Source: a bacterium (GTDB taxonomy: Bacteria; UBP15; UBA6099; DSWB01). Taken from it: DNA of 23,554 nucleotides. The notes below the pieces were generated by a model that saw nothing but the letters and a program-made list of their open reading frames with translations, searched no databases and was not told where the DNA came from. Positions within the stretch are counted from its first letter, which is position 1. Each line of letters begins with the position of its first letter. Positions 631 through 22,561 of the stretch are shown piece after piece. Location: positions 1 through 23,554 of the forward strand of contig JAGUYV010000461.1 of NCBI GenBank assembly GCA_020061125.1, given 5' to 3'. The position numbers and the translations under genes were made by a program.

Positions 631-3600
631 TCACTTCTTGAGCAGCAGAGTGAGCGCGCGGTCAATCTTGAGCCAGAATCCGTGGCCCGCGGGGATGGAG
701 TCGGTTCCGGCGGCGAGATGCCGGTATTCGCCGTTGCCGAGTTCGTCGGTGACATACCGGACCGCGTGCTGCACAAACCCGCCGCTGGCGGCTTCGCCCA
801 GGGTGAGCCAGTTGACGCCGTCGGCAGAGAACATGACCTTGTCGTTGCTCCACGGCAGGCTTTCCACGAACGGGTTGCCCACAAGGTTCCAGCCGGGCTG
901 CAGCGCGATCTCGATTTCCGTGTCCGTGTTGAGCTGTCCTTCCACGAACAGGGGATCGGTTTCGTCCTCCACGAAGTACCAGAAGGCCAGGCCCTGCGAT
1001 GTGCGCACGATGTTGTCCGAAGGAATCTCGATGTATTTCTGCTCGCTGCTGAACGAGAAGACCTTGCTCGCGGCGCGCGCGGGCACGATGGGATCCTGGG
1101 TCTGGATGACGACCGTGGATTCGGTGCTGGCGAGCGGGATCGTGACCAGGTTCCAGCCGCGGGACACGGCGCGCGCGAACACCTTGCCGTCGGCCTTGGG
1201 CGTGGAGGTGACGAGCGGCGAACTCTGGCTTTCATTGCCCGCCAGGTCCACGGCCGTGACCTTGAACCAGTATACCGTGTCGTTGATGAGGCCGGTCACA
1301 TTGTATCGCGGATATGTGGCCAGTGAGGAGTTGATCTGCACGAAGTTGGTCTTGTCGCCCACGGACTTGTAAATGCGGTAGCCCGCGAGATCCGGTTCGG
1401 AGTTGGCGGTCCACTTGAGCTGCACCGATGCGTTGCCCGAGGTGGCGGTGAGGCTCTCGGGGCGCGCGGGCGGGATGGTGTCGCTGCCCGGCACGCCGCA
1501 GGCGATGACGCCCGGACTTTCCGCGCCGGTGGTGTCTATGACGAAAATCATGTAGCAATAGGTTTGCCCCATGGTGAGGCTGCTGTCCACGAAAAGCTGC
1601 GTGGATTTGGGGAAGTAGCCGTCGGCCGTGGGATTGCCCGGAGTGATGAGGCTGAATGGACCGGCTTCGGAGCCGCTCTTCAAGAGCCTGTATCCCGCGA
1701 CCGTTGTGTCGGTGGAGCGTGGCGTCCAGGATACTTTGAGCTTATAGTTGTCGTCCGGGTCGGGCTGGACTTTAAGGCCGGTGACATCCGCGGGCTGGCC
1801 GTTGATGGACGGAGTGCCGAACCCGAACGCGGATTTCTCGCTCTCGCGGCCCCAGCGGTCGTAAGCCGAAACTTTGTAATAGTACCGGGTGTCGTTGATC
1901 ACGCTGATGTCGTCAATGCAGAAGTACTCGGGCTGCGTGGCGTCGCAGTAAGTGACCTTGCTCAAGTCATTGATGGTCGTGAGCTTGGTAGAGTATGCGC
2001 CGTTCGCCTTGGTGTCGCGCCAGATCATGTAGCCGATGACATTTTCGTTGTCGGACAGAGATGTATCCAGCGGCTTGACCTTGACGATGAGTTTGCTGCC
2101 TCCGGTTGGCGCCTCGGTTTTGGGCTTGTCGGGTGTGTCCATGTTGTTGGCGGGCACGCGGTCCCTGGGCACGGTGGGCCAGGCGTAGGCGGCGTCGAGC
2201 GAGGATATGTTGCCGGTGGAGTCCACGCCCAGAACCTGGTACCAGTACTGGCAGTCGTTGCAAAGGCCCAGGCCGTTGTTCTTGTCGGTGTACAAGCAGG
2301 AGTTGGCCGAGAGTTTGCCGTCGGGCCGCACATGGTTGCCCGAGGGGCAGGCCGTGGCCGAGTCGAGCGTGGCGACCAGGGTCCAGGCGCTGCGGAACGG
2401 ATCCGTTTCATCGTCCTTGGGCGTGCACACGCAGTCGTCCACATTGTTGGCCAGGCCGTCGTTGTCGCAGTCACCCAGGGGGTTATTGTCCGGATCACAA
2501 GTGCAGGAGAGCTTGTCGGGGGGATCCAGGCGGTAGATGTTGTAAGAAGCCACATCGTATGCGGTGATGCGGTCCCAGTGGATTTCCACATTGCGGGCGC
2601 GCAGGTTGGCGTCGTCAATGAACCCGTCGGCGTCGCTGTCCAGGCCGTCGCTGCTTCCTGCTCCGGTTTCGCCGAGGTCGAAGCCCGCGCGGATGGCGAT
2701 GGTTGCTGGCCTGCCCGGAGCGGTAGTGTCCACGACCGTTGTGCGCGCGGACGCCGTGTCGCTGGTCTTGCCCTCGTTGCCCACATTGTCCACGGCGGTG
2801 ATGCGGTAATAATAAGTCGTGTCCGCGACCAGATCCAGGTCATTGTATTTGAGAGCATTCACGACCTGGAACTCGTCGCCGCTGGCGGCGATGCCGTCGG
2901 GATCCATGTTCACGAGATTGGCGCCGGTGAGCGTGACGGGCGAGAAGCTGCCTTCGAGGCCCGTCTGGCTGCGGTAGATGCGCCAGCCTGCGATGTCGGT
3001 TTCCGCGCCCTTGTTCCAGCCCAGGCCGATGGCGGCGTTCACCAGCGGAGTGGCCGTGAGGCCCGTGGGCTTGCCGGGAGGCGAGGCGTCCACGGGTTTG
3101 ACCGACCGTGCTTCGGACACCGGGCTTTCATTCCCGTAGCGGTCCACGGCGCTGATGCAGTAGTAATAGGTGACGCCGGGGAGCACATCGTCATCGTGGC
3201 GGTAATAGGTGTTGGTCACGCCGCTCGCCACTTTGCAGTCGAAGCCCGGGTTGCAGTTGTTGTTCACGGAAATGGTGCAGGCCGGGGTTTCGCTGCGGTA
3301 GATATTGAATGAAGTGAAGTCGCTTTCCGCGATGCTGTTGGTGTCGCATACGGTCTGCTTGTGGGGCGCCCATTGCAGAACCACGGCCTGGCCGGAGCCG
3401 TCGGAGAACACGCCGCCGGACACGCAGTCCGTCGCCAGCTCGGTTGTGCAGTTGCTGGGGCGCGCGGCCGTTGGGCAGCCGATGTTGGGCGTGCGGTACA
3501 GCGGATCCCAGCGCGGCGCGGACGGCGCCGCCAGATCCTGGGGCTGCGTGGGTCCGGCAACTTCGGAATAACCGCTTTCATTGAGGCGCGAGTCCAGGGC

Positions 3601-6600
3601 CGTGACCATGTAGAAATAATTCGTGCCGTTCACCAGATCGGAATCTTTGTAATACACGGAACTTGTTCCGGAATCGGGTTGTGCGATGGGCGTCTGGTTG
3701 ACTTTTTCGTATTGCGATGTGGGCGGCTCGTTTGTTCCGCTCAAGTTCACGGCGCGGTACAGGTTGTAGCCAATGATGTCGTCCTCGCTGTTGCGCAGCC
3801 AGGTGATGGTGAGCTGTCCGCCGTAGTCGTCGCGCGGCGTTATGGTGGTGTTGACCTCCACGCAAGGCTCCGGCTCCGCGGTGACCGGGTCCGCGCATGC
3901 GCCTGTGGGCGCGGACGGCGGCTGGGCGTCCACCGGTTGAACCGGCACGGCCGTTGATTGTTCGCCCTCATTGGGCGGATGCACATCGTAGATGGCGTCG
4001 TCTTCCGGCGGGTCGTACACGGCGTTGTCCACGCCGGCCACGCGGTAGAAATATGAGCGGCCGGGCAGCAGCCCGTAGTCCACCGCGCTCATGCTCTCGT
4101 ATTTCACATATTTGAGCGGGGCGGCGGGATCCGGATCCAGAACCGGGCATGCGCCGACTTTGAAAATGTACTTCTTGGTGCCGTCGGGCAGAGTCACGAT
4201 CTCCTGTTGCCCCTGGTCCTCGTCCACGAGGCCGTCGCCGTCGTCGTCAACACCGTTGACATTTTCCTCGTCAATGGTGCCGTCGCCGTCGTTGTCAACG
4301 CCGTCGTTCACGGCCATGGGCACGCCCGTGGGCTGGCAGGATTTGTATTGGAATGTGCATGTGCGGCTGGCCGTGCATTGCGCGTCGCTCGTGCAGGAGA
4401 TGTTGGAAAGGGTGCAGCGCCCGCTTGAGCAGGTGTCCTGCTTGCAGTCGGAGTTGCTGTTGCACTGGCAGCCGTCGTTGTATGGCGCCGTGCCGCACCC
4501 GTTGGGCTGCGGCTGGATGGTAAAGTCTGGCGGGTTTGTGCAAACCTTGACGGCGTAGGTGCAGGAGCTTCCGGTATTGCAGTCCGCATCGTCCTGGCAC
4601 TGGCAGCCGTCTATGTACGGAGCCGTCTGGCATCCGCCGTGCACGCACGCGAACGGGCCGGTCTGTTTGTTGGATCTGTAAACCCGGAAATGGTCCAGGG
4701 TGATGTCGTTGTCGAGCATGCTCCATGTGAGGTTCACGGTGGTGCCGTCGGCGTTGCCGTCGGCCTTGAGGCTGGCTGGCATGGCGGGCGCCTGCGTGTC
4801 GGCGGGAACTCCAGACACGGAGTCCGAGAACACGCTGCAGTTGCCGCCGCTTACCCAGTTGAACTTGATATGCGGGTCGTCGCAGTTGCGCGGGTTCAGG
4901 AATGGATCCACGCCGTCGGTGTCCTCGATGGGGTTCACGCAACCCTGCTTGGTGTCGCGCCGCCAGGAGTTCTTGCCGTTGTCGCATGTGCCGGGCACGG
5001 CAAGCCCATCGCCTCTGTACGGCGAATCAATAGCCTTGACTTTGTAGTAATAGGTGTAACCGTCCACAAGACCGGTGTAGAACAGCACCGGGCGGTTTTC
5101 GCTGTCCGTGGCCTGATACAGCGCGATGCGGGTCTCTCCGTCCGTGTCGTAAATCTCGTCACCCACATTCCAGGCCGGGTCCATGTTGCCGCAATACTTG
5201 AGGTCGGGATTGTCTTTGGACAGCGTGGCGCAGTCAATCCATTCGTAGGCGTTCGGTTCGCCGGGGGTGGGCAGTCCATCGGCCTCGCCGGGATCCGTGG
5301 TTGCGGCCTGTCCGTCCATGCCCACATCGTCCGTGGCCGGATCCCAGTTGCAGTTGTCGTCGCCGAATATCTGGTCCGGGTTGCCGTCGCCGTCGCGGTC
5401 GCAGGTGTCTTCCGCGTTCACCGCGCCCACGCCGCCTTCAAAATAGCCCAGGCCGTCGTCCTTCATGTGCTTGTTGAGCTGGTGCAGGAACACCGGGGAC
5501 ACCACGCGGTAATGCGTGTCCGCGTCCGCGGCGTTTTCGCAGTAATCGGCCAGGGTTCCGTCTTCGGTTTTGATGACGGCGTCAATGGGCCGCGCCGGGC
5601 AGCGGTACACCACATATCCGCCCATGTCCGACTCGGGATTGAGGTCCCAGACCACTTTGGTGCTGCGGCCTTCGGATAACTGGTATGCGTGCCGTATCAC
5701 GGGCTTCATGGGCGGCGTGGTGTTGCGCAGAATGGTGACCGTGACCGTGTTCGACCACTGGCTCTGGTTGCCGTTCATGTCATAGGCAAGGGTTCTGAAA
5801 TTGTAGGTCTGCCCGTCTTCGGCAAGTTGCACATTGGCGTCGTTGTCATGATAGCAGTTGGTGGTGTAGCAGCCTTCGTCAATGAGGCCGTCCTTGTCGT
5901 CGTCCAGGCCGTTGCCCGGAATGTCGCAGTCCGCATCCATGACACAGGCGATTTTCTCTCTCGGGAAATTCCAGCCGGACAGAGACTTGGTTTCGTCCGC
6001 GGGAATGGAGAACCTGCGGCCATTGGGAGCGTAAGGCTCGTCCATGGCGGGGTTGTCGCGCGCTACGGTGGCGCCGCCCGTGTCCAGCGGGCTGTGGCCG
6101 TCGCAGTCACCGGCTGCGGTCATGGAGCAGACCGTGTAATAGTGCTGGAACTGCTGGCTCTGGCCTCGGGATACATAAATCTTGTATCCGGCCAGGTCCC
6201 TGATGAATGTGCTGTCCGAGTCCGTGTTGAAGATGACTTCGGGGAATTTGATCTCAATCTCCGTGGCTGTGGGATCGTAGCCTTCATCTATACGCGTGAC
6301 AATATTGGGATCCATGCCAACGGGATCCTCGAACGCGATGGGATCCGCGTCGTTGTCCGCGGTGTCGCTGGTGACGGCTTCGTCGCAGCGGCCCAGGCAG
6401 GCCTTGATTCTGGGCGCCTCGGGCGCTGTAACATCCGGGCGCAGGGACACGCTCTTTCTGGCTTTGTCGCCGGTGTGGTAATAGTTGATGCGCGGCGCCT
6501 GGTCCGAAGCCAGAGCCGCGAAGCTGAAGTTCTTGAAGCATGCGGCTTCGAGCAGCTTGCAGATTTCAAAGTCGTGCAGGCCGAGCACCATGCCGAGAAT

Positions 6601-8832
6601 TTCGTATGGCGCTTCTCCCGATTTTTGAATCTGACCCTCGATGGCCATTTCCACATATATTTTGTTGTTCTGTTTCTCGATGGTGCACGCTTTGCACATG
6701 AATTCGTCCAGCCCCATGCCGCCGTCGTCGGGATCTTCCGGAGGACAGCCGTCCGATGTGTCAGGCCCGCCGTCTTCGCAGGGGCAGGGGTCCACGCTGT
6801 TGCTGTAGGGGCCGTAAATGGCGTCGCCGTCGCAGTCGCCGTCGGGATCGCCAATCGGATCGCAGCCGAGTTCCTCGCACGGATCCTCTGACGCGCCCTC
6901 GGTGTTGCAGAAGTTGCATGCGCCGCCGTCTGCGTAGCTCTCGAGATCGCAGCTCTTGTAGTTCGACCCGAGGCCGCCGCTGATGAGCGCGTTGAGGTCC
7001 AGGAACAGCACGATTTCGCCGTAAATGGGAATGTCGGGCAGGATGACAAGGAAGTAGGTGCCGGCCTGTGCGCCCTGGTTCATGATTCGGAAGGTGTACC
7101 CGGTGAATTTGCTGGCTTGATCGCCGAAGTTCAGCACTTCGCATCCGATGATGGGATACCAGCTTCCATAGCAGCCGAAAACAATTTCGCCCGCGGTTTC
7201 CATCTTTAGATAGATATTTGAGGAGGAATGACTGACCTTGAGATTATGAATTTCCGCCATGCCGGTTTTGCCCTGGAATTCATGGCCGCACCCGGGCGCG
7301 TTGCCCGCGTCGCCGACATTCACGCAACTGTTGTAGACCGGAGAGTTCCAGGTGCAGCTTGTGGGCGCGCACTCGTTGTAGCAGCATTCGCATTCGGGCC
7401 ACGGGCACGGGCCGCCGTCAGTGAGCAGGTTCCAGTCTTCGGGCGCGGCGTTGCCCGGACAATACTGTTCCGTGGCGCCTCCCGACGCCGCGCCGCAGTC
7501 GGTGTTGTCGCGGTCGTCAAGCGCCTGGATCATGGCGTCCTGGTCCGTGGGCACCAGGTCCCAGTGGAAATCCTCGACGCCGACATAAGAATTTTCGTTG
7601 TTCGTGGGATTGAATGACGGGAACGGGGGCGACTTGGTGCCGGTGGCCAGATTGCCGCAGGTGTCAATCACGCGCGGGAAGAACTCGAATGCGCCGCCCG
7701 TCGTGTTGATGGCGCTGAACGGCGCCTGCGCCAAATCCACGCGCGCGGTCCAGGTTCCTCTGGTGTACACATAAAATGCGGCGTCCACCACATCCTGGTT
7801 GGTCAATTGATGCACGAACATGACCTTGCCCGAGTCCGGGTTCAGGGTGTAGGCGTAGATGCCGAAATCATCGTAAATCGCCACCATGTCCTCGTCCGGA
7901 AATTCCTCGCACAGGGGGTGTCTGGGCTTGCCGTCGTCGCCGTTGTAAACGCCGCAGGAAATGCCGGGAACGCCGTTCACTCGCACAATAGGTTCGCCGG
8001 GAATGTTCGGGAAATCCGTTCCGGGAACCGGGTCATATTGCGGGAAATAGTCCATGAAGTCGCCGCCGCCCTCTGGGAAGCCGGGCACATTGCAGTTGCC
8101 CGCGCCCTTGGTGCAGGTGGCGGGCCGGGCCGCGAGGAAATCCACGCCGTAGCCCGTGTCCACCGGCCCCCAGTCGTCCCACAGGGGGCAGTTGTTGCCG
8201 TAGGGGCAGGGGTAGTTCCAGGGAAATTCGTAGGCGTAAGCGCCGAAGCCCGCGGGCATGGCGCCGCGGCGGTTGGGCGCCGGGGCGTTGGTGGGCGCGG
8301 GCGTGAACGGAAGAGAAACCGCCCACGAGCCTTGAGGCGCTTGATAGGTTTTCCATTTCTTGCCTACATCGTTCAAAACCCGCAGAACATCGCGTTTGAA
8401 ATAATCCATGGGAACGCCCGGCCCCACGCCTGCCTGATTCATGTGCCACGAGCCGGGAGTGAATGAATACGCGATTTCCGAATACATAAGCCGCTGCGCA
8501 CCCGTTGTGAGGTTGTCCGTGGTTTCGGGCGTGCCGCCTTTTGCGGTAATCTGGATGGTCAGCAAATCGTTGGGGTTCGGGAACGGTTTGACAACTTCCA
8601 CGGAACTCAAGGCGGGCGGGGTTCCCGTTCCGTAGGGATAATCCCTGTTCCATGTCACAAGGCCGGGGTGGTAGATCCGCTTTTCTTTGCTAAGCGTATC
8701 GTCCGGCAATGTCACGGACAGAAATGTGCACAGGGGAAATATGCCCTTTGTGGGATGCGCAAACGCCTTTGCGGAAAATACGCAAAGCGCGATCGCGCCG
8801 ACCAGCGCCAGAACTGGTATTCGTGTTTTCAT
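631..8832 (-). CDS. Giant secreted Fn3-repeat protein with calcium-loop and Cys-rich inserts
   Basis: 2733 residues; probably secreted or surface-exposed, with an adhesive or scaffold role inferred from architecture only. Residues 1-25 form a signal peptide (KTR, hydrophobic core, cut after AKAFA). Residues 26-800 match nothing I recognise and include Cys-rich parts (470-515, 635-715). About ten Fn3-like units follow (roughly 865-1035, 1040-1280, 1345-1640, 1640-1765, 1770-1913, 1918-2032, 2038-2225, 2235-2342, 2345-2447, 2452-2546), recognised by the GYxxYR strand and YYYKVxAxD strand. DxDxDG loops occur near 661-685, 974-988, 1145-1165, 1510-1538, 2063-2074 and 2121-2135. The tail (2550-2733) has two GWNLVxxP motifs (2559 and 2648). 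No C-terminal anchor or sorting signal is seen. The ATG at 8832 is preferred because AAAGGGG lies just upstream and it begins the signal peptide; an in-frame ATG at 8883 is a weaker option. Confidence 0.9.
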   Translation of the reverse strand: MKTRIPVLALVGAIALCVFSAKAFAHPTKGIFPLCTFLSVTLPDDTLSKEKRIYHPGLVTWNRDYPYGTGTPPALSSVEVVKPFPNPNDLLTIQITAKGGTPETTDNLTTGAQRLMYSEIAYSFTPGSWHMNQAGVGPGVPMDYFKRDVLRVLNDVGKKWKTYQAPQGSWAVSLPFTPAPTNAPAPNRRGAMPAGFGAYAYEFPWNYPCPYGNNCPLWDDWGPVDTGYGVDFLAARPATCTKGAGNCNVPGFPEGGGDFMDYFPQYDPVPGTDFPNIPGEPIVRVNGVPGISCGVYNGDDGKPRHPLCEEFPDEDMVAIYDDFGIYAYTLNPDSGKVMFVHQLTNQDVVDAAFYVYTRGTWTARVDLAQAPFSAINTTGGAFEFFPRVIDTCGNLATGTKSPPFPSFNPTNNENSYVGVEDFHWDLVPTDQDAMIQALDDRDNTDCGAASGGATEQYCPGNAAPEDWNLLTDGGPCPWPECECCYNECAPTSCTWNSPVYNSCVNVGDAGNAPGCGHEFQGKTGMAEIHNLKVSHSSSNIYLKMETAGEIVFGCYGSWYPIIGCEVLNFGDQASKFTGYTFRIMNQGAQAGTYFLVILPDIPIYGEIVLFLDLNALISGGLGSNYKSCDLESYADGGACNFCNTEGASEDPCEELGCDPIGDPDGDCDGDAIYGPYSNSVDPCPCEDGGPDTSDGCPPEDPDDGGMGLDEFMCKACTIEKQNNKIYVEMAIEGQIQKSGEAPYEILGMVLGLHDFEICKLLEAACFKNFSFAALASDQAPRINYYHTGDKARKSVSLRPDVTAPEAPRIKACLGRCDEAVTSDTADNDADPIAFEDPVGMDPNIVTRIDEGYDPTATEIEIKFPEVIFNTDSDSTFIRDLAGYKIYVSRGQSQQFQHYYTVCSMTAAGDCDGHSPLDTGGATVARDNPAMDEPYAPNGRRFSIPADETKSLSGWNFPREKIACVMDADCDIPGNGLDDDKDGLIDEGCYTTNCYHDNDANVQLAEDGQTYNFRTLAYDMNGNQSQWSNTVTVTILRNTTPPMKPVIRHAYQLSEGRSTKVVWDLNPESDMGGYVVYRCPARPIDAVIKTEDGTLADYCENAADADTHYRVVSPVFLHQLNKHMKDDGLGYFEGGVGAVNAEDTCDRDGDGNPDQIFGDDNCNWDPATDDVGMDGQAATTDPGEADGLPTPGEPNAYEWIDCATLSKDNPDLKYCGNMDPAWNVGDEIYDTDGETRIALYQATDSENRPVLFYTGLVDGYTYYYKVKAIDSPYRGDGLAVPGTCDNGKNSWRRDTKQGCVNPIEDTDGVDPFLNPRNCDDPHIKFNWVSGGNCSVFSDSVSGVPADTQAPAMPASLKADGNADGTTVNLTWSMLDNDITLDHFRVYRSNKQTGPFACVHGGCQTAPYIDGCQCQDDADCNTGSSCTYAVKVCTNPPDFTIQPQPNGCGTAPYNDGCQCNSNSDCKQDTCSSGRCTLSNISCTSDAQCTASRTCTFQYKSCQPTGVPMAVNDGVDNDGDGTIDEENVNGVDDDGDGLVDEDQGQQEIVTLPDGTKKYIFKVGACPVLDPDPAAPLKYVKYESMSAVDYGLLPGRSYFYRVAGVDNAVYDPPEDDAIYDVHPPNEGEQSTAVPVQPVDAQPPSAPTGACADPVTAEPEPCVEVNTTITPRDDYGGQLTITWLRNSEDDIIGYNLYRAVNLSGTNEPPTSQYEKVNQTPIAQPDSGTSSVYYKDSDLVNGTNYFYMVTALDSRLNESGYSEVAGPTQPQDLAAPSAPRWDPLYRTPNIGCPTAARPSNCTTELATDCVSGGVFSDGSGQAVVLQWAPHKQTVCDTNSIAESDFTSFNIYRSETPACTISVNNNCNPGFDCKVASGVTNTYYRHDDDVLPGVTYYYCISAVDRYGNESPVSEARSVKPVDASPPGKPTGLTATPLVNAAIGLGWNKGAETDIAGWRIYRSQTGLEGSFSPVTLTGANLVNMDPDGIAASGDEFQVVNALKYNDLDLVADTTYYYRITAVDNVGNEGKTSDTASARTTVVDTTAPGRPATIAIRAGFDLGETGAGSSDGLDSDADGFIDDANLRARNVEIHWDRITAYDVASYNIYRLDPPDKLSCTCDPDNNPLGDCDNDGLANNVDDCVCTPKDDETDPFRSAWTLVATLDSATACPSGNHVRPDGKLSANSCLYTDKNNGLGLCNDCQYWYQVLGVDSTGNISSLDAAYAWPTVPRDRVPANNMDTPDKPKTEAPTGGSKLIVKVKPLDTSLSDNENVIGYMIWRDTKANGAYSTKLTTINDLSKVTYCDATQPEYFCIDDISVINDTRYYYKVSAYDRWGRESEKSAFGFGTPSINGQPADVTGLKVQPDPDDNYKLKVSWTPRSTDTTVAGYRLLKSGSEAGPFSLITPGNPTADGYFPKSTQLFVDSSLTMGQTYCYMIFVIDTTGAESPGVIACGVPGSDTIPPARPESLTATSGNASVQLKWTANSEPDLAGYRIYKSVGDKTNFVQINSSLATYPRYNVTGLINDTVYWFKVTAVDLAGNESQSSPLVTSTPKADGKVFARAVSRGWNLVTIPLASTESTVVIQTQDPIVPARAASKVFSFSSEQKYIEIPSDNIVRTSQGLAFWYFVEDETDPLFVEGQLNTDTEIEIALQPGWNLVGNPFVESLPWSNDKVMFSADGVNWLTLGEAASGGFVQHAVRYVTDELGNGEYRHLAAGTDSIPAGHGFWLKIDRALTLLLKK

Positions 8833-8908
8833 GGAGCCGCCCCTTTTACGGAGTTGTCTCTCGTGCCCGGATTGTTCCGTCATCAGTATGCTTTCCCGAT
8901 TTTCCTGA

Positions 8909-8937
8909 ATTTTAACACATACCAACAAATTTATTAA
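8909..8937 (-). promoter_or_regulatory. Candidate promoter of the giant Fn3 gene
   Basis: On the minus strand TTAATA, a 17-nt spacer and TAAAAT, giving a leader of about 70 nt to the ATG at 8832. A second candidate lies just upstream (TTGATC, 16 nt, TATATT; 8946-8973). Both are in an AT-rich block that contrasts with the GC-rich surroundings. Confidence 0.4.
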
Positions 8938-8963
8938 GTAATCCAAATATAAATCTGTGGTTG

Positions 8964-8975
8964 ATTTGATCAAAT
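8964..8975. promoter_or_regulatory. 12-bp perfect palindrome, possible operator
   Basis: ATTTGATCAAAT reads the same on both strands and overlaps the -35 of the upstream candidate promoter of the giant gene. A dimeric repressor or activator site would fit, but AT-rich DNA yields such palindromes by chance fairly often. Confidence 0.25.
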
Positions 8976-9226
8976 TCCATGCCACTGGCGCACACTTTTG
9001 CGCTCGCTTCAAAACGCATGAAAACATCAATAATGAAGCTGTTTATTTGTTCATTCATGATTGCGGCGGCCCTGGCAAGGCAGTGGCCGGTTCAATGATC
9101 GTGCAATGCGTTTCATGGGATCCGTGATTTTTTTGCCGCAAAATTTCGATTTTGGGGGCGGTGTTCACGGCTTCCGTGGCCATGATTCCAGACTTCCGGG
9201 AATTCCGATTCTCCGGCCGGACGGTG

Positions 9227-11947: not shown

Positions 11948-13903
11948 TCAATCCTTCAACTGCGGCAGATCCTTGTAAAGCTCCAGGCAATGGGGGTTGG
12001 CCAGGGCGTCGGCGTTTTTCACGGCGCGGCCGTGGATGATGTTCTTGACCGCGAGTTCCACCTTTTTCATGTTGATGGTGTACGGGATGTCCGCGATGGG
12101 AATGACCTTGGCGGGCACATGGCGCGGCGAGCAGTTCACCCGGATGTTGGTTTTGATCTTCTTGATCAGATCATCGTCGAGCTGTTTGCCCTCGGGCATT
12201 TTTACGAACAGGATGATGCGCACATCGTCTTCCCAGTCCTGGCCGATGACCAGGCTGTCGGCGATTTCCTCCATGCCCTCGACCACGCGGTAGATTTCCG
12301 CGGTGCCGATGCGCACGCCGCCGGGGTTGAGCGTGGCGTCGCTGCGGCCGTGGATCACGACCCCGCCGCGCTCGTTGATGGTGATGAAGTCGCCGTGGCA
12401 CCAGATGCCGTCGTATTTGTCGAAATATGCTCCGTGGTATTTTGCACCGTCCGGGTCGTTCCAGAAATGGATGGGCATGGACGGGAACGGCTTGAGGCAC
12501 ACAAGCTCGCCCGCTTCGTTAATCACGGGCTTGCCCTCGTCGTTGAACGCCTGCACGGCCATGGCCAGGCACCGCGCCTGCAGTTCGCCCTTGTACACCG
12601 GCCCGATGGGATTGCCCGCGGCGAAGCACCCGTTCAAATCCGTGCCGCCCGAGATGGACGACAGGCAGATGTCTTCCTTGATTTGCTTGTACACAAAGTC
12701 GAAGCTCTCGGGCGACAGGGGCGAGCCGGTCGAAAGCATGGCTTTGAGCGTGTCCACTTTGTACTGCTCTTTTGGCTTCACGCCCGCGTCTTCCACGCTG
12801 GCGATGTACTTGGCGCTGGTGCCGAAGATGGTCATGCCCTCGTCCTCGGCGTATTTGAAAATCGCGCCCGCGTCCGGATAGAACGGCGAGCCGTCGAACT
12901 GCAGGATGGTGGCGCCCACGGACAGCGAACTTGTGAGCCAGTTCCACATCATCCACCCGCAGGTGGTGAAGTAGAAAATTTTGTCCTCGCGCTTGAGGTC
13001 CGTGTGCAGGAGCAGTTCCTTCATGTGGTGGATGAGGATGCCGCCCGCGCTCTGCACCATGCACTTGGGCAGGCCCGTGGTGCCAGAGGAGTACATGATG
13101 TACAACGGGTGATCGAAGGGCAGTTGCTCGAATTCGATGTCCAGGCCTTTTTCATGGGAGATGAAATCCGCGTAGTGAACCGCACCCTTGAGCATGGAGA
13201 TGTCCGCTCGCTCCTCGGTGTAGGGAACCACCACGACTTTGGGGTGCGAGGTGAGCTGCTCGAAGATGCCTGCGACTTTGTCCAGAGAGCTGAAAGTTTT
13301 GCCGTTGTAGGAATAGCCGTTGGCCGTGAATAGAACCTTTGGCTCGATCTGGCCGAAGCGGTCGAGCACGCCCTTGACGCCGAAGTCGGGCGAGCACGAG
13401 GACCATGCCGCGCCGATGCTGGCCGCGGCGAGCATGGCGATTACGGTCTGGGGCATGTTGGGCATGAACCCGGTCACGCGGTCGCCTTTTTGCACGCCCG
13501 CCGCACGCAGGCTTTTGGCCAGGCGCGCCACTTCGTCGTACAGCCCGGCGTAGGTGTAGCGCACGGGCTGGCTCATGGCCTCGCCCTTGAACACGATGGC
13601 CGGGCGGTCGTCACGGTAACGAAGAAGATTTTCCGCAAAATTCAGTTTTGCGCCGGTGAACCATTTCGCGCCGGGCATCTTGTCCGGATCGTCAATCACC
13701 TGGTCATAACCCTGTGAGGCGATGATCCCGGCGTAGTCCCACATGGCCGCCCAGAAGTCCGCGATATTGTTCACGGTCCACTCGTACAGTTCGGGGTAGT
13801 CCTTGAAATCCGTGCCGTGCTTTTGATTGATTTTCTGCATGAATTCGAACATGTTGGTGCTTTTGATGCGTTCCTGCGAAGGTTTCCACAACATCTCGGC
13901 CAT
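11948..13903 (-). CDS. aacS: Acetoacetyl-CoA synthetase (acetoacetate-CoA ligase)
   Basis: 651 residues, the usual length of the family. It activates acetoacetate with ATP and CoA through an acyl-adenylate, feeding ketone bodies or PHB breakdown products into acetyl-CoA and lipid metabolism in the cytoplasm. The N-terminal cap domain has [15 protein letters not shown] (80-94). ATP-binding motifs are [10 protein letters not shown] (271-280), GWMMWNW (316-322), SGGTDL (418-423), WCHGDF (501-506) and [15 protein letters not shown] (519-533). The catalytic lysine of the adenylation half-reaction should be K613 in NMKKVE. The separation into MWNW and GGTDL segments points to acetoacetyl- rather than acetyl-CoA synthetase. 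GAGGTGG precedes the ATG at 13903 by about 6 nt. It is monocistronic, with its own promoter (13980-14009) and terminator. Confidence 0.92.
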
Positions 13904-13979: not shown

Positions 13980-14009
13980 ATAATAACCGCCCGCGGCGCG
14001 GGGTGTCAA
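13980..14009 (-). promoter_or_regulatory. Sigma70 promoter of the acetoacetyl-CoA synthetase gene
   Basis: On the minus strand a consensus -35 TTGACA, an 18-nt GC-rich spacer and a -10 TATTAT (five of six). This predicts a start near 13973 and a leader of about 70 nt. Confidence 0.7.
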
Positions 14010-18719: not shown

Positions 18720-20159
18720 ATGCCAGCAGAGAACAGCGGTGGAAAGAGCAACCAGGGCGGCAATTTGTGCCCTATGTGCCGCAGGCCGCTCAAGCCGAAT
18801 TCCTTTTTTTGCACAGGTTGCGGCCACCGTATCGGCGAACCGCCCAAAGCTGCGGTCCAACCAAGCGTAAACCCCGAATTGCTAAAATACCAGCAACGGA
18901 GCGCTTCTCTGGAGGAACCGGAACCTAAAGGCAAGCGAGTAAAGAAGAAAAAAGCCGCGCCTCCGTCTGAAGCGGCAGCGTTTTTTAAGGCATTCCAGAA
19001 AAAATACATCATATTTATTGGCGTTTCGATATTTTTCATACTGCTCGGAACGGGCTTGTTCGTATGGCAGAACTCCCGGTATCCGGACCTCGAATATCCT
19101 GTTCAGATGGAAGAAACCGCGGATGGTATATATATTTCCTCGACAAAAATGATTGCAAAATATACATCCGATGGCGATCTTGAATGGAAATTGGAGAAGG
19201 CGGGCCAGGGGCGCGACTTTTCGGGCCGGCTCGATTTTTCGTTCGGACCCGATGGGAATTTGTACATCGCGAACACGAATCACGGCGTGATTGAAATTGT
19301 TTCGCCGGACGGCAAATGGACGGGCGCCATGGGCAAGGGCACGCTGGGCGCCCTATTCACCCTGGCGTTTCTCAAAGACGGGCGCATTGCAGTGGCGGAC
19401 ACGCTCAACCATGCAGTCGTGGTGTTCACGGCCGGGGGCGAAGTCGAGGCCAGGCTGGGCGGCGCGGCGGGCAGCGGCGCCGAGCAGTTCAACTTTCCGT
19501 CCGGCATTGCGCAGTTGCCCGATGGCCTCATTCATGTGGTGGATTCCGGAAACCAGCGCATGCAGCGCATAGATCTGCAATTCATTTTCCGTGATTCCTG
19601 GGATCTGTCTTTGCGAGCAGGCTCCACGCCGCGCCGGGGCGGCATGATCAAATCCATAAAAAACGCTATATTCAAAAGCACTTTTTTCCCGAAACGGATT
19701 TTGTTCGATCCGGTCAGGGACCATGTGCATACGATCTACGGACCCGGCATCACAGAGTTTCCAACGGATGAATCATTCATTGTGCGTCTCGACAAAAACG
19801 GCCAGTTTGTGGAGAGCGTGGATTTGCCCGCGCCAGGTGGCGGGCCGTTGAATCCGCAGCGGCTGCGCCGCGCGCTGCAAGATAAAATCGCGCTCGTGGA
19901 TCCGGATGCGTTTATCGCGGGTTCGTGGGATCCGGCCTCGAATTTTTTCGAGCCGGTTTTCAACCCGGGAGTAAGCATGGAACTGCAGCGCATGAAAGAC
20001 GCGCACGGGTCGTTGCGCGCCATCCGGGGCGTGGGCGTGTTTCTGCTGATTCTGGGCGTTTTGGGCCTGGCTGCGCTCGGAGCGCTGGCATTCAAAGAGT
20101 ACGGCGGCTATCGCGGAGACAGTGCGGCAACGGCAGGCGGCGCGCCTCCGGCGCATTAA
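18720..20159 (+). CDS. Membrane protein: zinc ribbon, TM helix, NHL-type propeller, TM helix
   Basis: 479 residues. A zinc ribbon lies at the N-terminus (CPMC 17-20, CTGC 31-34), followed by a charged linker (KGKRVKKKKAAPP, 70-82), a first TM helix (about 96-115), a large domain with NHL/SMP-30-like repeats (FSFGPDGNLYIANTNHGVI 173-191, FLKDGRIAVADTLNHAVVV 217-235, QLPDGLIHVVDSGNQRMQRI 265-284) and a second TM helix (about 438-458). This predicts a cytoplasmic zinc ribbon and a periplasmic beta-propeller, with the short C-terminus back in the cytoplasm. NHL propellers bind ligands or proteins; the partner is unknown. The ATG at 18720 is the only sensible start; GGGAAA about 13 nt upstream is a weak Shine-Dalgarno, and coupling to the gene 53 nt upstream is possible. 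Confidence 0.82.
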   Translation: MPAENSGGKSNQGGNLCPMCRRPLKPNSFFCTGCGHRIGEPPKAAVQPSVNPELLKYQQRSASLEEPEPKGKRVKKKKAAPPSEAAAFFKAFQKKYIIFIGVSIFFILLGTGLFVWQNSRYPDLEYPVQMEETADGIYISSTKMIAKYTSDGDLEWKLEKAGQGRDFSGRLDFSFGPDGNLYIANTNHGVIEIVSPDGKWTGAMGKGTLGALFTLAFLKDGRIAVADTLNHAVVVFTAGGEVEARLGGAAGSGAEQFNFPSGIAQLPDGLIHVVDSGNQRMQRIDLQFIFRDSWDLSLRAGSTPRRGGMIKSIKNAIFKSTFFPKRILFDPVRDHVHTIYGPGITEFPTDESFIVRLDKNGQFVESVDLPAPGGGPLNPQRLRRALQDKIALVDPDAFIAGSWDPASNFFEPVFNPGVSMELQRMKDAHGSLRAIRGVGVFLLILGVLGLAALGALAFKEYGGYRGDSAATAGGAPPAH

Positions 20160-20190: not shown

Positions 20191-20219
20191 TTGACATATC
20201 AGCGGGAATTGGGTACACT
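20191..20219 (+). promoter_or_regulatory. Strong sigma70 promoter with no protein gene downstream
   Basis: A consensus -35 TTGACA, exactly 17 nt, and TACACT (four of six). The predicted start is near 20226. The next gene downstream (stop at 20364) is on the opposite strand, so this promoter drives no visible coding sequence. Confidence 0.7.
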
Positions 20220-20225
20220 AACCTT

Positions 20226-20310
20226 GACTGGTTTATTTCCTCTTTGGTGTTGCAATCGAGCCCGGACTTCAACTCGTCAGCAAAATACTAAAAGGGCTCG
20301 AATTTTTTTT
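20226..20310 (+). ncRNA. Candidate small RNA of about 85 nt
   Basis: Bounded by a near-consensus promoter (20191-20219) and a hairpin plus T-tract (20256-20310). The 5' part is unpaired and pyrimidine-rich; TTTCCTCTTT (20236-20245) is complementary to purine-rich Shine-Dalgarno sequences, as in many trans-acting repressors. The 3' half is the terminator hairpin. A 14-codon frame from GTG at 20248 lacks a ribosome site. No known RNA family is recognised. Confidence 0.55.
20256..20310 (+). terminator. Hairpin with eight-T tract
   Basis: An 8-bp perfect stem TCGAGCCC (20256-20263) / GGGCTCGA (20294-20301) followed by ATTTTTTTT. The 30-nt loop is long for an intrinsic terminator. On the minus strand no T-tract follows, so it acts on plus-strand transcripts: the candidate small RNA and possibly read-through from the NHL protein gene ending at 20159. 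Confidence 0.65.
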
Positions 20311-20363: not shown

Positions 20364-21497
20364 TCATTTATCTTTGAGCAGATTTCTATAGATGCGCTCC
20401 GTGCGGTCGGCCATGACATCCACGGTGAAGTTTTCGAGCACCATCTGGCGTCCGCGCACGGCCATGTCCTGGCGCAGCGCGGGATCCTCGATGAGTTTGA
20501 GGATGGCCTCGCGCAATGCGGCGTAGTCCCGGGGCGGCACCAGAAGACCGGTCTGCTCGTGATACACCAGTTCCGGGATGGCCATGACCTTGCTTGCGAT
20601 TACGGGCGTCTGTTGCAACAGAGCTTCGACCACGCCCAGGCCGAACCCTTCGCCGTGCGTGGGATAACACGCCAGGTCGCACGCGCGCAGAATGCCCGGC
20701 ACATCTTTGCGGAACCCGAGGAACAGCACATTGTCCGCGATGCCGAGTTCCCGCACGCGCGCTTCGAGGTCCGGACGCAGAAGCCCGTCGCCGATGACCA
20801 GCAGCTTGGCTTCGGGGTGCTCATTCATCACGCCTTGCAGGGCCTGGAACAGGGTGGGGTGCCCCTTGACCGGCACCAGGCGGCCCACAGTGGCGATGAG
20901 AAAATCGTCATCGGACAGGCCGTGCGCGGCGCGATCAAACGGACTCGCCTCGGCCTCGGCAAGCATCCGGTCCGTTTCGATGCCGTAATACACGGTTCGC
21001 ATGTGCTGTTTCGGAATCTTCTCCACCACATGCACGAATTCCTGGAGCGCGTCGGAGATGGTGATGACGCGGTGCGCCCAGCGGCTCACGATGCCGTCCA
21101 GCTTGTACAGCCGGGACGGACGCTCGTAATTGTCGTACCCGTGTTTGGTGCTCACAATGCAGCGCACGCCCGCGCTGCGCGCTGCGGGGATGCCGTACAG
21201 ATCCCCGTGAATCAGGTGGGTGTGAACAATGTCGTATTTGCCCGCGGCCACAATTTTGCGCACGGCCCTGAAGGCCCCGAAATCCGTGTGTGTTCGAATT
21301 GGAATGGGTGTAACTTTTACCCCGGCCGCCTCGTTTTTTGCGTAATACTCCGGAAAATCCGCTTCGGGCGGGTGCAGAATCAGAAATTCCACGACGAAAC
21401 CGCGGCGGACAAGAGCGGGCAGGAGCATGCCAAGGTGATGCTCGGACCCGTATATTCCGCTGATTTTCTGAATGTGAAGCACGCGCGGGTTTGGCAT
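20364..21497 (-). CDS. Family 4 (GT-B) glycosyltransferase
   Basis: 377 residues, a full-length GT-B enzyme that transfers a sugar from a nucleotide donor, probably at the inner face of the membrane in surface glycan synthesis. The N-terminal acceptor domain has VLHIQKISGIYGSEHHLGML (6-25), a variant of the family's GGxE motif, and HTHLIHGDLYG (92-102). The C-terminal donor domain has VGRLVPVKGH (204-213), VIGDG (234-238) and HGEGFGLGVVEA (281-292), which contains the E-x7-E pair E283 and E291. The ATG at 21497 begins at the first beta strand; it has only a weak Shine-Dalgarno and lies 11 nt after the stop of the radical SAM gene, so re-initiation is likely. It is the last gene of a three-gene minus-strand operon. 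Sugar and acceptor are unknown. Confidence 0.9.
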   Translation of the reverse strand: MPNPRVLHIQKISGIYGSEHHLGMLLPALVRRGFVVEFLILHPPEADFPEYYAKNEAAGVKVTPIPIRTHTDFGAFRAVRKIVAAGKYDIVHTHLIHGDLYGIPAARSAGVRCIVSTKHGYDNYERPSRLYKLDGIVSRWAHRVITISDALQEFVHVVEKIPKQHMRTVYYGIETDRMLAEAEASPFDRAAHGLSDDDFLIATVGRLVPVKGHPTLFQALQGVMNEHPEAKLLVIGDGLLRPDLEARVRELGIADNVLFLGFRKDVPGILRACDLACYPTHGEGFGLGVVEALLQQTPVIASKVMAIPELVYHEQTGLLVPPRDYAALREAILKLIEDPALRQDMAVRGRQMVLENFTVDVMADRTERIYRNLLKDK

Positions 21498-21508
21498 GAT
21501 GCGTCCGA

Positions 21509-22561
21509 TCAGGTAAGAATCCGGGTGTAATAAGCCGGGCAGCCGCGGCAGATTTTGGGCGGCGAATCGCTCTTGAGCGCGCGGCGGAACGCCTGATACT
21601 TCTTGTTGTTCCAGATTTCCGCAAAAGGTGTCTCGAAAATATTTCCGAATTGGATCACATCCGGGTTGGACCCCTGCACGCAGCACGGGGTCACAAAGCC
21701 CTCCACACTGATGTAGGTGGAGAACCAGGGCCACTGGCACCCGCGCACGGTCTGATCGCCGGAAAAGTCCGAAACTTTGTTGAACCGCACGCCATGTTTT
21801 GCGGCCTCTTGTTCGGTCTGCGACACGATGTCCGCGAATTCGCCCTTATTGATGCCAAGCTCTTGAACTACGGATTTGGACAATTCCTCGCGGCCCCAGG
21901 AGTGCAGGTTCTGAATGTAGAGATTCTTGACGCCCGCATTTGCGGCCAGAGCGGGCATCTGCGGCAGTTCCCTGATGTTTTCTTTCATGGCCAGGAACCA
22001 CACGCCCACAAGCATGTCCGCCGGGGCGCGGCGCCCCAGCCGTGTGAGGTTTTCAATGACTTTTTCAAACACCGCGCCGCGCCGGAAGTGCTCGTATGTC
22101 TGCTTTTGCGCGCCGTCTATGGACACGCGCACCTCGTTCGGCCCTGCCGCGATGAGCTTCTCGCAGTTCTTTTCGTTCAGCAGGCAGGCGTTGGTGTTGA
22201 AATACACAAAAACGCCCTGCCGCCTCGCAAACTCCACCATGTCGAAGAAATCCGGGTTCATGAGCGGTTCGCCCACGCCCTGAATGGCGAGTTTTTGCAG
22301 AAACGGGAATTGCCCGATGACATGGCGGAACTGCTCGATGGTCATTTGCTGCTTTGTGCGGCTGCGCAGGGCGGGGTCGCACATGAGGCAGTCGAGGTTG
22401 CAGCGCAGGGTCGGCTCGATAATGATGCTCAAGGGGTGGTAGCGGACGATGTCCGGCTCGGAACGGATGGCCGCATAGCCGCGGGCCATGTTAATCATGC
22501 CGGGCGCGCGGCCGCGCCGCCAGCATTGCAGGGCGTAACGGGCGACTTTACCGGGGTTCAC
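21509..22561 (-). CDS. Radical SAM protein with SPASM-type C-terminal domain
   Basis: 350 residues. The radical SAM cluster motif is C54-x3-C58-x2-C61 (EPTLRCNLDCLMCDP), followed by a GEP motif (97-99), a strand NTNACLLNE (122-130) and VSIDG (146-150). The C-terminal cysteines C275, C293, C294, C338 and C341, with FGNIFETPFAEIWNNKKYQ between, fit a SPASM or twitch domain holding an auxiliary iron-sulfur cluster. Such enzymes modify peptides or sugars through a 5'-deoxyadenosyl radical; lying between two glycosyltransferases, a role in making or editing a surface sugar, or a cyclitol such as those of aminoglycosides, is plausible. The start is GTG at 22561, sharing GTGA with the upstream gene's stop, a tight coupling. 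No peptide precursor gene is seen nearby. Confidence 0.88.
   Translation of the reverse strand: MNPGKVARYALQCWRRGRAPGMINMARGYAAIRSEPDIVRYHPLSIIIEPTLRCNLDCLMCDPALRSRTKQQMTIEQFRHVIGQFPFLQKLAIQGVGEPLMNPDFFDMVEFARRQGVFVYFNTNACLLNEKNCEKLIAAGPNEVRVSIDGAQKQTYEHFRRGAVFEKVIENLTRLGRRAPADMLVGVWFLAMKENIRELPQMPALAANAGVKNLYIQNLHSWGREELSKSVVQELGINKGEFADIVSQTEQEAAKHGVRFNKVSDFSGDQTVRGCQWPWFSTYISVEGFVTPCCVQGSNPDVIQFGNIFETPFAEIWNNKKYQAFRRALKSDSPPKICRGCPAYYTRILT

Follow-up and report, generated by a model that had tools for sequence, protein, structure and literature searches.

A 23,554-nt stretch of DNA from contig JAGUYV010000461.1 (hereafter the window) probably carries a stand-alone gene for a trans-acting small RNA, RNA A, which would block the flagellin gene M, while a second small RNA with a FliA-type promoter, RNA B, would titrate RNA A and block another flagellin gene, F. 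This suggests a pair of opposing RNAs choosing which flagellar filament protein is made in uncultured bacteria. The proposal builds on sequence elements, their conservation and their complementarity, all of which are read directly from the DNA. An earlier note on the window had already taken the segment for a trans-acting small RNA, and the sequence argues for that reading: the RNA is conserved, contains no conserved open reading frame and has a conserved partner in a flagellin ribosome-binding site, and the rest of the RNA matches RNA B.

The RNA A locus

The elements of the locus and its two convergent neighbours are as follows.

18720..20159, plus strand: upstream convergent neighbour, NHL-repeat protein
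20191..20196, plus strand: −35 box TTGACA, identical in all five homologues
20214..20219, plus strand: −10 box TACACT (TACACT/TAAAAT/TACACT/TACACT/TAATAT in the homologues)
20226..20310, plus strand: predicted small RNA A, 85 nt, its start placed 7 nt past the −10 box; the conserved block starts at GAC
20256..20263, plus strand: 5′ arm of the terminator stem, UCGAGCCC, with GAGCCC conserved
20294..20301, plus strand: 3′ arm of the terminator stem, GGGCUCGA, with GGGCUC conserved
20303..20310, plus strand: T8 tract of the terminator, with T-runs at the equivalent place in all homologues
20364..21740, minus strand: downstream convergent neighbour, group 1 glycosyltransferase

The promoter singled out in the earlier note, TTGACA–17 nt–TACACT at 20191–20219, is indeed present, and the only other perfect TTGACA with an acceptable −10 box in the whole window lies on the minus strand at 14009. 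This second strong promoter-like site (13980–14009, minus strand, TTGACA-N18-TATTAT) stands 5′ of an acyl/acetoacetyl-CoA synthetase-like gene (11948–13903, minus strand) and thus has an ordinary gene behind it. A 10/12 promoter match is weak by itself, the window holding 18 promoter-like sites vs. 6.2 expected. The RNA A promoter rises above chance because TTGACA and a −10 box are kept at the same position in all five homologues. The hairpin and the eight Ts described downstream were likewise recovered, as an 8-bp stem around an unusually long loop of 30 nt, owing to which a terminator scan misses it. The stem energy is −14.2 kcal/mol in the window copy and −8.9 to −9.4 kcal/mol in the others; in the window copy the terminator stem is not the minimum-free-energy fold (z −0.18), and in the relatives' copies it is. 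Since neither the promoter score nor the fold energy alone is convincingly above chance, the case for RNA A rests on conservation.

RNA A occurs once per genome in five of the seven genomes of the order, i.e., G000 (the window's own), G001, G002, G003 and G005, which span four genera and three families. A search of 60 genomes detected it, 77–84% conserved, solely in four relatives from the same order, and a sequence model run over 98 genomes agreed, with matches at E values of 1e-22 to 1e-29; the 91 more distant genomes gave weak matches only, none of them convincing outside the order. The aligned copies retain TTGACA, the −10 box, GAC.GGUUUAU.U.CU..., UGGUGUUG, GACUUCAACU, GGGCUC and the T-run. 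Every copy lies in a gap between convergent genes, in three different gene contexts: the NHL-repeat protein and the glycosyltransferase in G000, DNase IV and others in G002, G003 and G005, and folC and lplA in G001 (gene names come from inspection, or from Pfam where that was run). The conservation search proposed in the earlier note thus finds promoter, core and terminator kept while the neighbours differ. No reading frame is kept across the five copies, in which the frames are broken differently, and there is no ribosome-binding site, in line with the earlier statement that no gene lies between promoter and terminator. That promoter, core and terminator persist beside differing genes and that no frame is kept together indicate that RNA A is a stand-alone RNA gene. 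RNA A was not found in G004 or G006, whose assemblies are incomplete; the locus is probably missing from these assemblies, since the DNase IV gene that flanks RNA A in their family is absent from them as well.

At both gathering and permissive thresholds, Rfam returned only chance matches, and RNA A fits no Rfam family at gathering score. A CsrA-sequestering RNA of the CsrB/RsmY type, which would carry several GGA motifs in its loops, was considered and rejected: the window copy has a single GGA, which is not conserved in the other copies. Elsewhere in the window, a 2799-aa open reading frame (631–9030, minus strand) contains many repeated fibronectin-like and Ca-binding-like stretches and probably encodes a secreted surface protein.

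Predicted pairing of RNA A with flagellin M

Flagellin gene M follows flgL-fliW-csrA in a flgK-flgL-fliW-csrA-flagellin locus, in which the identities of flagellin, FliW and CsrA were confirmed by Pfam; the sequence scan identified no promoter for M. The start of M (AAGGAGGAGAUAAACCAUGUC) is complementary to the 5′ end of RNA A through the following element.

20226..20246, plus strand: seed GACUGGUUUAUUUCCUCUUUG, pairing with flagellin-M mRNA CAAGGAGGAGAUAAACC(A)UGUC from the Shine-Dalgarno sequence to codon 2

The pairing uses all 21 of the 5′-terminal bases with one bulge, and with one extra mismatch in G002 and G003. The anti-Shine-Dalgarno seed of the earlier note, UUUCCUCUUU, does sit at 20236–20245 in RNA A, but the seed is wider than proposed and takes in the whole 21-nt 5′ end. 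Corrected for accessibility, the A:M energy is −19.5 to −24.2 kcal/mol, and M is the best flagellin target of RNA A in all five genomes. In G000, G001, G005, G002 and G003, this energy was matched or beaten by 0, 0, 0, 3 and 3 of 284 background starts and by 0, 0, 0, 2 and 1 of 500 shuffles, respectively; anti-Shine-Dalgarno seeds weakly match many starts, and the three background starts in each of G002 and G003 are equally good.

Targets were sought by pattern searches over seven whole genomes plus a 120-kb background sample. With up to two mismatches to the seed complement, the M start is the sole whole-genome site outside RNA A in G002, G003, G004 and G006, and one of two in G000, the other lying inside a phage-type open reading frame. 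There are three further sites besides the M start in G005, and in G001 the M start shows three mismatches; among the other sites inspected, none reads as a flagellin start. The G001 pair also covaries, the leader reading AGGGAGG and RNA A CUCUCUCU, so that a U-A pair is turned into C-G. Target prediction from the seed, as the earlier note had recommended, therefore yields a specific and conserved partner, the ribosome-binding site of flagellin M.

RNA B, its predicted pairing with RNA A and flagellin F

The only significant second match to RNA A in G000 is located on a different contig, on the other strand, and belongs to a separate RNA, RNA B, which would be transcribed toward a strong terminator. 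RNA B is present in five genomes (G000, G001, G005, G006 and, in a divergent form, G002), and searches of G003 (92% complete) and G004, both incomplete assemblies, did not detect it. Its fold stands out against shuffles (z −4.7 to −5.6). Its neighbourhoods vary, i.e., a valS/AtpZ-like gap in G000, an Rrf2-type regulator in G005 and a metallo-beta-lactamase-fold gene in G001 and G006 (L002, L017, L020, L021, L166).

The promoters of RNA B are of the TAAA-N15/16-GCCGATAA type and resemble the consensus of sigma-28 (FliA), after which we label them; the one in G001 scores under the threshold of the sigma-28 scan. Of the 90 flagellin leaders in these genomes, 36 carry the same type of motif, vs. 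4.25 in shuffles, and each of the seven genomes encodes FliA, with one copy cut by a contig end. Since its promoter fits the consensus and the genomes encode FliA, RNA B has the sequence features expected of a FliA (sigma-28)-dependent small RNA. Hfq was found in four of the seven genomes and was not detected in G000 (79% complete).

The complementarity between RNA A and RNA B amounts to about 32 bp in three blocks of RNA A.

20236..20243, plus strand: first block UUUCCUCU, complementary to RNA B AGAGGAAA and overlapping the flagellin-M seed
20246..20258, plus strand: second block GGUGUUGCAAUCG, complementary to RNA B CGAUUGCAACACC
20266..20276, plus strand: third block ACUUCAACUCG, complementary to the 5′ end of RNA B and mimicking flagellin-F codons (AACUUCAACUC)

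In the four genomes with both RNAs, the A:B duplex energies (RNAduplex) are −58.9, −53.3, −49.5 and −35.9 kcal/mol, and pairing is still favourable by −5 to −16 net of the unfolding cost. RNA B is thus complementary to RNA A across the seed, as a sponge or antagonist should be at the sequence level, and the two occur together in four genomes. In G002, where RNA B is shorter and weaker than the other copies, both partners have changed and yet pair (GUUCUC in RNA A, GAGAAC in RNA B).

The 5′ end of RNA B is also antisense to codons 2–11 of flagellin F (MAIVNTNFNS type), which was identified in five genomes. F is the best flagellin target of RNA B in all five, with the pairing in G002 not outstanding. 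The promoter of F is of the sigma-70 type in four of the five genomes, TTTACA-N16/17-TATAAT or near, with no sigma-28 site. The terminator loop of RNA A holds an F-like mimic, ACUUCAACUC.

These genes belong to an unusually large set: flagellin-N-domain matches number 7 to 21 per genome across the seven genomes, several of them in frames of more than 900 aa. A possible action of RNA A on an AACACC..AGAGG element of flagellin 5′ leaders was dropped, as the element occurs in one F leader (G000) and is not enriched over a reversed-pattern control in the seven genomes. Many flagellin leaders (L053, L043, L050, L046 and others) contain a small GGA-loop hairpin (e.g., gggcATGGATGccc, gggtcACGGACgaccc) just 5′ of the Shine-Dalgarno sequence, 20–45 nt before the start codon. 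These hairpins resemble CsrA-binding sites, and csrA and fliW adjoin flagellin M.

A third small RNA family, RNA C, has FliA-type promoters and is found in every one of the seven genomes, several of which have two copies (G000 contig C235, 1146–1244, minus strand, L275; other loci L232–L238, L277 and L278). Its 34-nt core, UGACAUGGUUGCUG.UAGCCACAGCAACUCCUCCU, is nearly invariant. RNA C shows block-wise complementarity to the start of flagellin M (AACCAUGUCA, AGGAGGAG). All M leaders share a conserved hairpin with the loop UGGCU, to which the loop AGCCA of RNA C is complementary. By simple duplex energy, C:M pairing is not better than background, and for this reason a role of RNA C as a further antisense RNA to M is a lead only.

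Alternative readings

We weigh four alternatives to the reading of RNA A as a blocker of M that is itself titrated by RNA B. First, RNA A could be a real small RNA whose sole function is to act as a decoy for RNA B through its flagellin-F mimic, its fit to the ribosome-binding site of M then following from a block that binds purine-rich sequence. The raw A:B duplex energy is much stronger than that of A:M, and any Shine-Dalgarno sequence is matched by pyrimidine runs. However, the A:M match runs well beyond the Shine-Dalgarno sequence to AUAAACCAUGUC and covers the invariant 5′ end GAC.GGUUUAU, which lies outside the three main B-pairing blocks, and across whole genomes the seed matches M uniquely or nearly so; we consider a pure decoy unlikely.

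Second, RNA B could be the primary regulator, acting only on F and on RNA A, with RNA A activating M, e.g., by displacing CsrA or by opening a structure. The position of M beside fliW-csrA, the AGGAGGA in its start and the control of flagellin by CsrA known in other bacteria all speak for such a role, whereas the simultaneous covering of Shine-Dalgarno sequence and start codon by RNA A would normally block initiation, and activation of M seems to us quite improbable.

Third, the segment might be merely the terminator of the upstream gene plus a chance promoter, as its position between convergent genes and its unremarkable promoter score would allow; the recurrence of promoter, core and terminator beside unrelated genes in other families already contradicts this and leaves it a very small probability. 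Finally, a short leader peptide or small protein, to which a short TTG-initiated frame in phase in the window copy could point, is barely credible given frames broken differently in the five copies and no ribosome-binding site.

Proposed mechanism

The favoured reading, in which RNA A blocks M and RNA B counters RNA A, involves transcription, a sign of regulation, a sponge effect and a timing that we infer from the sequence, and it would run as follows. RNA A would be made from its housekeeping (sigma-70-type) promoter, and its 5′ 21 nt would cover the Shine-Dalgarno sequence and start codon of M, blocking M translation. RNA B, made elsewhere from a FliA-type promoter, would pair with RNA A over the three blocks, one of which overlaps the M seed. 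Because the seed and the first B block coincide at 20236–20243, M and RNA B are expected to compete for RNA A; RNA B would thereby act as an antagonist (sponge), and M would be freed once FliA is active. The 5′ end of RNA B could in turn pair with F mRNA or, alternatively, with the F-like loop in RNA A (20266–20276), and since this loop mimics F, RNA A and RNA B may titrate each other. High RNA A would then mean M off and F on, and high RNA B would mean M on and F off. An early-F, late-M order would fit the sigma-70-type promoter of F and its lack of a sigma-28 site. More tentatively, and with somewhat less than even confidence, we propose that RNA A and RNA B form an RNA-only toggle between the flagellin paralogues F (early) and M (late), with the FliA-type RNA C also acting on the M start and the reciprocal decoys ordering filament composition.

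Relation to known systems and significance

CsrA and FliW control the translation of flagellin, e.g., of hag in Bacillus. The same CsrA–FliW–flagellin control regulates the translation of Campylobacter flaA (PMC4894983). The present system is similar in that flagellin translation would be the regulated step and M adjoins fliW-csrA; however, CsrA–FliW control is protein-based, whereas with RNAs A, B and C the same ribosome-binding site would also come under RNA control.

In Escherichia coli, the sigma-28-dependent small RNAs UhpU, MotR, FliX and FlgO are under FliA control, and some pair with flagellin mRNA and alter the flagellin level (PMC10578931). These RNAs are derived from UTRs and pair inside the fliC coding sequence (PMC10578931), whereas RNA A is preceded by a sigma-70-type promoter of its own, would cover a flagellin start and is matched by a dedicated antisense partner with a FliA-type promoter. 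In Campylobacter jejuni, FlmE (CJnc230) and FlmR (CJnc170) have opposing effects on flagella, one of them being FliA-dependent, and FlmE targets the flgM and Cj1387c mRNAs (PMC11187230), whereas RNA A and RNA B show complementarity both to one another and to a pair of flagellin paralogues. CJnc180, the antagonist of CJnc190, is encoded in cis opposite it (PMC8687705), whereas RNA B is encoded on a different contig, next to unrelated genes, and its complementarity to RNA A is only partial. Judged by its predicted elements, the system would work like known flagellar small RNAs and would differ from them in joining, in trans, two complementary small RNAs, promoters of different sigma types and two flagellin paralogues.

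If true, the proposal describes a post-transcriptional means of ordering filament proteins, with RNA B under the control of the sigma factor whose activity signals that the hook is complete. It would bear on how an uncultured lineage chooses among its flagellins, with 7 to 21 flagellin-domain matches per genome, and it would mean that small-RNA circuits are readable from metagenome-assembled genomes alone.
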